From positions 1 to 24,393 of IMG/VR virus record IMGVR_UViG_3300043410_001344: DNA of 24,393 nt, one strand, 5' to 3'. A model generated the notes under the pieces. It was not told the origin of the DNA. It was given only the letters and a program-made list of their open reading frames with translations, and ran no database searches. Positions within the stretch are counted from its first letter, which is position 1; each line of letters opens with the position of its first letter. The DNA is from a virus. The position numbers and the translations under genes are program-made. Positions 1-13,416 of the stretch are shown here, piece by piece.

Positions 1-437
1 TACTTCACCCACTCGTCCCAGACCCTACGGAACATAGGACTGTGAGGAAGGGGTAAGGGGTTATTGTTATCCTCTGTCTTATCCTCTGTACTATCTGTAT
101 GAAGTCTATTTCGTGGGGGGCGTGAAACGGATTTCGTGGGGGGTATGAAATTGGCTGCATCCCCCTTGAGGGCTACGAGTGCCTGTTTCTCCACCGTCCG
201 CAGGATGCGTTTGCCGTCCACTTCCAGGCGTACCACAAGCCCGTTATCGATAAGGGTCTTGAGGAGGTTCTGGACTTGCCGTGGAGTCAGCGCCAAGTTC
301 GTGGCGATCCACCCGTTGGAAGCGTAGCATCCCTCGTCGCCATCCAAGGCATCGATTAGTCCGTAAAGGACACGGGCAGACAAAGGAATGTCCACCCGTT
401 CCAATACGGCCTTGGGAATCCAAGTGCCGTGCGTCAT
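1..437 (-). CDS. Winged-helix replication initiator-like protein (partial)
   Basis: This reading frame begins with ATG at 437 and runs leftward off the window edge, giving about 145 residues without the C-terminus. Residues 1-75 form a winged-helix-like domain: a segment typical of phage O-like/DnaD-like initiators (SARVLYGLIDALDGDEGCYA, then TPRQVQNLLKTLIDNGLV), followed by a basic wing (KRILR). The next stretch is a Pro/Thr/Asp-rich linker coded by two DNA repeats. In lambda-type phages such a protein binds origin repeats in its own gene and recruits the helicase; that role is inferred here. The downstream neighbours of a nuclease and a RusA resolvase fit a replication/recombination operon. 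No SD is seen. It could also be a plain HTH regulator, because the C-terminal domain is missing. Confidence 0.72.
   Translation of the reverse strand, partial: MTHGTWIPKAVLERVDIPLSARVLYGLIDALDGDEGCYASNGWIATNLALTPRQVQNLLKTLIDNGLVVRLEVDGKRILRTVEKQALVALKGDAANFIPPTKSVSRPPRNRLHTDSTEDKTEDNNNPLPLPHSPMFRRVWDEWVK
62..150. repeat. Iteron-like repeats inside the initiator gene
   Basis: Two 19-bp copies of TTTCGTGGGGGGYRTGAAA lie at 109-127 and 132-150 with a 23-bp period. Each is an interrupted palindrome (TTTC...GAAA). Beside them, at about 68-98, the sequence TATCCTCTGT occurs twice in a row with a degenerate third copy. Lambda keeps its origin iterons in the linker of gene O, and these repeats fall in the equivalent linker of the initiator-like gene. 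Origin function is inference. More copies may lie outside the window. Confidence 0.5.
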
Positions 438-8087: not shown

Positions 8088-8112
8088 AAGGGCCGGTTGA
8101 CGGCCCTTTTTT
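8088..8112 (+). terminator. Rho-independent terminator
   Basis: There is a perfect 8-bp stem AAGGGCCG/CGGCCCTT with loop GTTGA, followed by a T run. It ends the operon 5495-8069. The downstream words TTTTTTGTGCCTA recur after the next two terminators. Confidence 0.92.
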
Positions 8113-8417
8113 GTGCCTAGGTAGGTAGGTAGGTAGGCACACACATACGCACATACGCACACATACAGGAGCTGCATCACGCGCCACATAAAGCTGCCAA
8201 GCACGGCCTAGTTGCGATCTACTGCCAGGCTTCAGTCACTGGACTCTGCACCTGGCAATCGACGCACACCGGCACAGGCAAGCCCTGGCAAGTGTATCCA
8301 GGAAACACATACACAGGCCCGTAACGATCTGCACACCGGCCCAGTGCGTACCTGGATATTTTCCCTTTACTATGTGATGCGCCTACCTACCTTCATTCAT
8401 GCACACCCACACATCAC
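8113..8417. other. Inter-operon spacer without a supported gene
   Basis: After the terminator come a GTAG tetranucleotide run and CACATACGCA repeats (8117-8166), one CACGCGCC octamer (8178-8185) and a mixed sequence rich in CCTGG, CACACCGGC and ACGATCT words that resemble those in the other spacers of the module. No tRNA-like T-arm or convincing start codon was found. A promoter for the gene at 8418 must lie here, but I cannot point to it. Confidence 0.6.
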
Positions 8418-9937: not shown

Positions 9938-9963
9938 AAAGGGCCGTTAATGGCCCTTTTTTT
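9938..9963 (+). terminator. Rho-independent terminator
   Basis: The stem AAAGGGCC/GGCCCTTT has loop GTTAAT and is followed by Ts and the words TTTTTTTGTGCCTA. It ends the operon 8418-9887. Stem and downstream words closely resemble the terminator at 8088-8112, so the two probably share an origin. Confidence 0.92.
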
Positions 9964-10107
9964 GTGCCTAGTGCCTAGCCGGTCCGGCTACTGGGCCTAG
10001 CTGCTTTTGACTGGTAGGGCCGTTATGATCTCGGCCTAACTGCCTGGGTGTGCTGTACAGACTTCGCGCCAAGTCACACACCCAGGAGTAAATAGGTAAG
10101 AAAACCC

Positions 10108-10258
10108 GAAAATTGCATTAGAGGTGCCTGGCTTGCCCGTAGAGACGGGTTTACTTTTGCCCATGTCCTACCCTTGGCTGCGCCATGCAAGGGCTTCCTA
10201 GGCCATTTTTTTAGTGTGACTAAACCGTTGATTATCAACTACTTATGAAACTGTTAAA
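10108..10258. repeat. Left arm of a large imperfect inverted repeat
   Basis: The left arm matches the reverse complement of the right arm in ordered blocks: CCGTAGAGACGGG (10137-10149 with 10586-10598), ATGTCCTAC (10163-10171 with 10565-10573), AGGGCTTCCTAGG (10190-10202 with 10534-10546), then TATCA/ACTTAYGAAAC further in. Weaker similarity extends outward to about 10108. The arm holds the hairpin CCCGT-AGAG-ACGGG followed by TTTACTTTT, a second CCCTTG/CAAGGG hairpin with a T7 run (10204-10212 area) and the palindrome GTTGATTATCAAC (10227-10239). No gene is supported here. Confidence 0.75.
10136..10157 (+). terminator. Terminator-like hairpin in the left arm
   Basis: CCCGT-AGAG-ACGGG forms a 5-bp stem followed by TTTACTTTT. 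The mirror copy in the right arm (10580-10598) has a run of seven Ts on the minus strand, so both point inward and would keep transcription out of the central repeats. Confidence 0.5.
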
Positions 10259-10278
10259 TAAGTGTAAAAAACTGCCTT

Positions 10279-10400
10279 TAACATGATAACATTACTCATG
10301 ATTACAGGTTAAGCCTGGCTTAACATGACTAGATTACCCAGGATTACAGGTTAAGCCCGATCTAATCATGACTAGATTACCCTGGATTAACAGTTTAAAG
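10279..10400. repeat. Three direct repeats of about 43 bp (iteron-like)
   Basis: The units are at 10279-10320, 10321-10363 and 10364-10400 (partial). They share AACATGACTAGATTACCC, then GGATTACAGGTTAAGCC. At the first junction lies a perfect 17-bp palindrome, GTTAAGCC-T-GGCTTAAC (10308-10324). The array is AT-rich and sits in the middle of the large inverted repeat. Beside it is AGTTTA/TAAACT (10391-10410 area). The layout fits initiator binding sites; no function is proven. Confidence 0.8.
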
Positions 10401-10464
10401 TATTATAAACTATTTTCGATTTCGCCCAGACTTGGCGCACCCCATGCTTGCACTGCCAACTTTA

Positions 10465-10627
10465 TAATATCGTTTCGTAAGTCACTGATAAACAGGCACT
10501 TATGAATAGTAAAAAAAGTATGGCCTGGCTTGCCCTAGGAAGCCCTAACAGACCTTTGCCCATAGTAGGACATAGGCAAAAAAAGCCCGTCTCTACGGCC
10601 CTGCTAGGCCCATTTACTGCGAAATTG
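10465..10627. repeat. Right arm of the large imperfect inverted repeat
   Basis: This is the partner of 10108-10258. It contains CCCGTCTCTACGG (10586-10598), GTAGGACAT (10565-10573), CCTAGGAAGCCCT (10534-10546) and two A runs (10511-10517 and 10578-10584) that read as T runs on the minus strand. An extra segment of about 14 bp (around 10520-10533) interrupts the match. ORFs of 68-84 codons that cross this arm look like chance. Confidence 0.75.
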
Positions 10628-11677: not shown

Positions 11678-11700
11678 ACACTCCACACAGTAACACACAG

Positions 11701-11724: not shown

Positions 11725-11930
11725 GTGCCTACTCACTAGCCGGTGCGTAGAGACATCACGCGCCAGTTATGATCTCAAACTCGTCATGCCAAGCTGCCTT
11801 TGTAATGAATAACTCATGACGGTCTGTATGTGCGAAGTCATTACAGTGCGTATGCGTGAAGTAACTACACACTGCCAGGTCTGACTGACTCGCGCCACAC
11901 CCAGAAGCCGGTGTGCGACGGTCTGGGACT

Positions 11931-12003
11931 TTATAATATTCCGTTATAATAAAATAATATCAGTCTATAATAATATTATAGGAGTATATAATAAAATAAT
12001 ATC
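11931..12003. repeat. AT-rich tract with direct and inverted repeats
   Basis: About 70 bp is nearly free of G/C. A 17-bp direct repeat TATAATAAAATAATATC occurs at 11945-11961 and 11987-12003. Between the copies is a perfect palindrome CTATAATA-A-TATTATAG (11965-11981). This looks like a DNA-unwinding element or a regulator-binding array. Confidence 0.8.
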
Positions 12004-12038
12004 GACCAGTTTGGGCGCGTCTGGCAGCTCGACCCGGC

Positions 12039-12072
12039 GGGGGGGATCGCCCAGGGGGAGGGGGGTGGGGGG
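12039..12072 (+). other. G-quadruplex-forming motif
   Basis: Runs of G7 (12039-12045), G5 (12054-12058), G6 (12060-12065) and G6 (12067-12072) are present on the plus strand, the last three separated by single bases. This meets the usual G4 pattern with ease. It lies about 35 bp after the AT-rich repeats. Confidence 0.75.
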
Positions 12073-12373
12073 TCTAGCGGGTTCACCCATATACCCTTTT
12101 TCTGCAATAAGCCTTACTTATGGGGTCTAGTGGAGTATCTTATGGAGTGATGGATGGATGATGAGGTAGGCTTATCTTGTGTATTAGGAAATCTAATAGG
12201 TCTTTGGAATATGGATGACTGACTTGACTGGGTATGGTGTCACCCCCTTAATAATCCCCCGTCTCCCCCCTCAGTCCCCCAGAGGGGGAAGGGGTTATTG
12301 TCGTAGAGAATCGAAGACATAACTCCTGGGAGACAGGTTGACGAAGTCCTAACTTAAGGTTAGATCGTTGAAT

Positions 12374-13337: not shown

Positions 13338-13416
13338 TCCCCTTTAAATCAGTCGTTTACTGTCAATAAGGTGGACTACTTGACAAGTTATCCACATTAG
13401 CGAGACTTATGGGACT

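Follow-up and report, generated by a model that had tools for sequence, protein, structure and literature searches.

The gene-free stretch of about 500 bases listed below, called the dyad here, is most likely a cis-acting nucleoprotein site, and from its sequence we tentatively read it as a second (late or auxiliary) replication origin or a fork-control site, not as the main origin of the phage. A preliminary description had proposed an undescribed origin. A conserved non-coding element with origin-type parts is present, and an origin is the leading reading only as a secondary site. The same description found no gene here, and the alignment agrees: there is no conserved open reading frame, and in relatives early stops interrupt the 68-aa frame at 10502. 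The features, numbered along the window (the whole stretch of 24,393 nucleotides analysed), are as follows.

109–150, minus strand: two palindromic iterons (109–127 and 132–150) in the O-like initiator gene, outside the dyad
9938–9966, plus strand: rho-independent terminator of the upstream gene unit (scan: 9-bp stem and T7; fold −14.3 kcal/mol, z −2.7)
10115–10205, plus strand: left inverted arm (repeat comparison, self-BLASTN, shuffle test)
10135–10150, plus strand: terminator-like hairpin CCCGTAGAGACGGG with T-rich tail, in the left arm (scan; fold −11.1 kcal/mol, z −1.8)
10149–10155, plus strand: heptamer GTTTACT, in most versions some 80 bp to the left of K1
10220–10246, unstranded: K1, imperfect palindrome CTAAACCGTTGATTATCAACTACTTAT with IHF-consensus matches WATCAANNNNTTR on both strands
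10249–10270, plus strand: AT-rich tract after K1, conserved in both clades
10278–10304, plus strand: 27-bp repeat, copy 1 (38.7 bits)
10308–10324, unstranded: 17-bp perfect palindrome GTTAAGCCTGGCTTAAC where copies 1 and 2 join (read from the sequence)
10320–10346, plus strand: 27-bp repeat, copy 2 (40.3 bits)
10363–10389, plus strand: 27-bp repeat, copy 3 (38.6 bits)
10401–10469, unstranded: AT-rich dyad, TATTATAAA (10401–10409) and TTTATAATA (10461–10469)
10403–10411, plus strand: TTATAAACT, a degenerate DnaA-type box with two mismatches, at the position of clade B's TTATNCACA
10486–10506, plus strand: diverged second copy of K1, a direct repeat (76%)
10531–10620, minus strand: right inverted arm (repeat comparison, shuffle test, fold)

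The record is a 24.4-kb virus contig from a group of tailed phages. By large terminase the group has many relatives in IMG/VR, and no named phage was found to be close to the window. The L081/G009 contig is effectively the same virus (100% over 11,997 bp) and adds 8.3 kb leftward, bringing its known sequence to 32.7 kb. Larger relatives measure 42.6–44.9 kb (G001, G004 and G008, the last of these with an end repeat of 127 bp) and 36 kb (G003). The genes left of about 1.7 kb form a leftward operon for RusA, an exonuclease, an O-like initiator, a DnaC/P-like loader, Dam and an Erf/Rad52-type annealer (gene names drawn from G008 and the window); the rightward side carries small genes and, beyond them, those for the tRNA, the terminase and the head. 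Where the two operons diverge lies a highly conserved 163-aa protein (1739–2230), which gives a weak Pfam match of helix-turn-helix-like type (E 0.01) and is a possible regulator; it is not favoured as the binder of the dyad repeats because distant relatives without detected repeats carry it. Two further non-coding stretches stand out on the rightward side. Positions 11800–12010 form a second origin- or promoter-like stretch of 24-bp repeats and then AT-rich TATAATAT units spaced roughly 21 bp apart, conserved in all relatives examined and with five copies of the 24-bp repeat in L002. Positions 12040–12340, which immediately precede the gene at 12368 and terminase, hold G-rich and then C-rich runs that are conserved even in L017 and may be a packaging site or structured DNA. 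Host hints are weak, consisting of two Verrucomicrobiota-labelled MAG contigs with TerL relatives at 51% and 35%.

Relatives with the region were collected by searching for terminase, the left arm and the K1 element, and related phage contigs gave ten distinct versions, which are related phages and not independent samples. Four make up clade A (the window, G004, L009 and L091) and six make up clade B (L001, L002, L006, L010, L012 and L090), the region of G008/L089 being identical to that of L012. The module is absent from the examined sequence of L017 and L022, whose TerL proteins are 86% and 82–83% identical, so the wider group does not require it. The K1-pattern match in L092, which lacks the module, is a chance match, as are the 17-mer matches in L112 and L113, which are located elsewhere. 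Named phages and plasmids gave no match to the region, and the sole match in an Rfam search was a tRNA.

The centre of the dyad is better conserved across both clades than the flanking genes. Identity between the clades peaks at 0.72 over 10222–10266, at K1, and elsewhere is mostly 0.15–0.45. The upstream protein has only 38–46% identity within clade A and in clade B was for the most part not detected, and the downstream genes differ between the clades while the array is retained. All ten versions occupy the orthologous place, flanked upstream by a unit that ends in a terminator and downstream by a short unit. At K1 the IHF consensus (PMC10380432), which is that of E. coli and may not be the host's, is matched on one or both strands in nine of the ten versions; genome-wide, each of five genomes holds 1–4 such matches. 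Substitutions in G004 and L006 break the match on one strand, and the other strand keeps one. In the right half of clade B versions, a near-invariant GGGTTTTATGAGCTGCC is accompanied by what may be a very short leader peptide (MSC-L/R-H).

The three 43-bp repeats of the preliminary description exist, at 10278, 10320 and 10363, as copies of a 27-bp repeat at a pitch of about 43 bp. The matrix for this repeat scores 29–40 bits in this region alone and at most 12.2 elsewhere in five genomes. Because it was trained on the same repeats, the high scores arise partly by construction, and the informative results are the absence elsewhere and the fixed spacing. The first copy lies at K1+49 in the window and G004 and at K1+57, on the opposite strand, in all others. 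Later copies follow at 42–44 bp, apart from a single step of 34 bp in L009. There are three copies in the window, G004 and L091, four in L009, and one or two in clade B, where the single copy of L090 is weak (17 bits). The 17-bp palindrome and the AT-rich dyad, both previously noted, are likewise present, the centre of the former not being conserved in G004. The most AT-rich 250-bp window in the known 32.7 kb of the virus is 10172–10421 (36% GC), and the lowest-GC window of this size falls at the same site in G004. GC skew shows no clear turn here and is uninformative as an origin signal.

Right after the last repeat, all six clade B versions carry a perfect match to the DnaA box, TTATNCACA, by the E. 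coli consensus, which may not be the host's. It occurs in two sequence forms with different flanks and lies at K1+89, except in L006, where one extra repeat displaces it by exactly 43 bp, to K1+132. The degenerate TTATAAACT of the window lies at K1+174 with three repeats before it, almost exactly two more repeat lengths. Another perfect DnaA box, TTATCCACA, is found at 13388–13396 between the tRNA-Thr and terminase genes, and G001, G003 and G004 have TTATNCACA matches likewise between tRNA and terminase.

The inverted arms are real and shorter than first described. Their inverted match has a local score of 62, the highest among 300 dinucleotide shuffles being 29, with a self-BLASTN E of 2e-9 and a single-strand DNA fold of the region at z = −7.5; the arms span about 90–105 bp instead of about 150 bp. 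The pair 10155–10205/10531–10581 is 75% complementary and the pair 10115–10157/10578–10620 is 74%. Each arm had been thought to carry an inward hairpin with a T run. This holds on the left, where CCCGTAGAGACGGG is present in the window, L009 and L091 and missing from G004, and where a second hairpin (10192–10204) precedes T7. On the right, the terminator scan did not list the minus-strand hairpin at 10599–10585, which is also followed by T7 and whose fold is weak (−6.3 kcal/mol, z −0.1). The terminator at 9938–9959 insulates the site from the left and is a stronger insulator than the arm hairpins, which are not conserved beyond the clade of the window; the protected centre of the preliminary description applies mainly to the window itself. 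Rightward terminators at 8088, 9938 and 11699 have a common tail, TTTTTTGTGCCTA, and similar ones close the gene units of relatives. After a terminator, 8118–8166 holds TAGG and CACACATACG microsatellites, and GGTAGGTA runs are over-represented in all relatives.

Long arms are kept in all four clade A members, and none are significant in clade B, so they were rejected as a conserved feature. Arm pairs combined across species match as well as own pairs, which gives no sign of co-evolution. GTTTACT recurs in other intergenic regions; its inverted partner AGTAAAC, found on the right in most relatives, is lost in the window. Loss of the arms with retention of the flanking genes had been named as grounds for rejecting the preliminary description, and the outcome is mixed: the arms persist in clade A and not in clade B, and the centre persists in both.

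The main origin probably lies elsewhere, in the O-like gene. There, this virus, G001, G003 and G004 have two 19-bp palindromic iterons of the TTTCGTACCCCCCACGAAA type, 23 bp apart and adjoined by a purine-rich tract (55–150 of the window, minus strand), and G008 has a different iteron pair at the same place; this is a probable lambda-type main origin. That the dyad, with its origin-like parts in a phage encoding O and P-like proteins, is itself the main, O-dependent origin is improbable. The O iteron matrix reaches about 30 bits in the O gene only, and its best matches in the dyad are at chance rank, with marginally better ones in G004 and G008 (ranks 18–20 of about 88,000, 3.5–4.4 bits); this mismatch led us to reject the O-dependent reading. 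The 27-bp repeat differs from the O iteron. G008 shares its dyad repeat with the other genomes, yet its O is only 43–49% identical to theirs and has iterons of its own, so the O site and the dyad appear to evolve independently. Lacking O iterons, and with a repeat that does not track O divergence, the dyad, about 10 kb from the O gene, is probably not an O-dependent main origin.

The main and close rival to a second origin is a transcription control region, a real if less favoured possibility in which operators, a bend site and promoters serve the small genes downstream, as far as 11677; the 27-bp repeats would then be operators for a regulator from phage or host, and the arms would be attenuating terminators. 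Phage operator regions, too, typically contain palindromes, phased repeats and IHF sites, and DnaA can act as a transcription regulator. The dyad has such palindromes, phased repeats and IHF-like sites, lies directly upstream of a short gene unit that ends in the terminator at 11699, and shares its arm heptamer with other intergenic regions. Against this, 500 bp is a large array for a unit of four genes, promoter-like matches occur at chance level, the array stays while the genes it would control vary between clades, and a search by family found no obvious repressor. If the dyad is a regulatory region, it is still a sharply defined conserved module that matches nothing in named phages or plasmids.

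Little probability attaches to a role as phage attachment site, centromere or packaging site. The IHF-like site and repeats resemble attP, and the repeats resemble a centromere. Family searches of six records, in which the positive controls matched, detected neither the tyrosine integrase (PF00589) nor the serine recombinase (PF00239) that a phage-encoded attP system would use, no ParA-type ATPase (PF13614) of a ParABS-type centromere, and no initiator of the Rep_3 family, the one searched as cognate Rep. These absences argue against an attachment site, a centromere and a standard iteron plasmid, and the segregation site suggested earlier is not supported, no ParA having been found. As for packaging, the terminase gene is 3.2 kb away and another conserved G-rich sequence is closer to it. 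The non-autonomous, MITE-like mobile element that had also been suggested, inserted into the phage, is extremely unlikely: inverted arms do surround a non-coding centre, but single-copy occurrence at an orthologous position in both clades and conservation of the centre, not the ends, argue against it. Moreover, no target duplication was seen at the arm ends, named phages and plasmids gave no match, and no resolvase or integrase was found to go with such an element.

For a second origin or fork-control site, we infer the binding events and the role in replication from the elements, their fixed spacing and their conservation. An IHF/HU-class bending protein would bind the palindromic K1, and a separate protein would load onto the 27-bp repeats at their pitch of about 43 bp, which is roughly four turns of the helix. 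The end of the array may be occupied by host DnaA or by another protein that uses an equivalent box, and the complex would then open AT-rich DNA or halt an arriving fork. The upstream terminator, with the left-arm hairpin as reinforcement in this virus, would shield the complex from transcription. The phage group encodes a resolvase, an exonuclease and an annealer. A more far-reaching and rather doubtful proposal is that this O/P-type phage family has two structurally different origins, one of lambda type in the initiator gene and one intergenic, composed of K1, 43-bp-phased repeats and a DnaA box and served by a different repeat-binding protein.

A comparison with known systems places the dyad among several types. 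Iteron plasmid origins of the pSC101 and P1 oriR type combine helically phased repeats, a DnaA box, an IHF-type site and AT-rich DNA with variable repeat number. The dyad shares the phased repeats, in one to four copies at a 42–44-bp pitch, the IHF-type site and the AT-rich DNA, and in clade B the DnaA box, which is perfect in the six relatives there. It differs in that its pitch is about twice that of usual iterons, the box of the window is degenerate, with two mismatches, no Rep_3-type initiator was found and no plasmid sequence matched. Like the lambda-type origin in the O gene (PMC7466680), the dyad sets iterons beside AT-rich DNA in a phage encoding O-like and P-like proteins; unlike it, the dyad lies outside the O gene and has no O iterons, and the O gene has a lambda-like set of its own.

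By layout, the nearest working model is SPP1. In the excerpts of the sources used here, SPP1 oriL lies inside initiator gene 38 and is paired with oriR (PMC6316719, PMC3485210), an intergenic, AT-rich site of direct repeats, which has transcription signals on either side and lies about 13 kb from the initiator-gene origin (PMC6316719). Initiator bound at this site has been proposed to stall forks and so to set off the synthesis of concatemers. As far as these excerpts go, oriL and oriR share repeats bound by gp38, whereas the two repeat sets here differ, with O iterons in the dyad marginal or not above chance; nor do the excerpts describe long inverted arms or a K1 palindrome for oriR. In its likeness to SPP1 as excerpted, the phage studied here has a candidate origin in its initiator gene and a second, intergenic AT-rich site of direct repeats, about 10 kb apart, with transcription signals bracketing the site, a similar genome size and recombination genes for a late replication mode. 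If the dyad is a second origin or fork-control site, it would extend the two-origin plan of SPP1 to an uncultivated phage group, with two unrelated repeat sets in one phage, and would supply concrete sequences for testing a change of replication mode.
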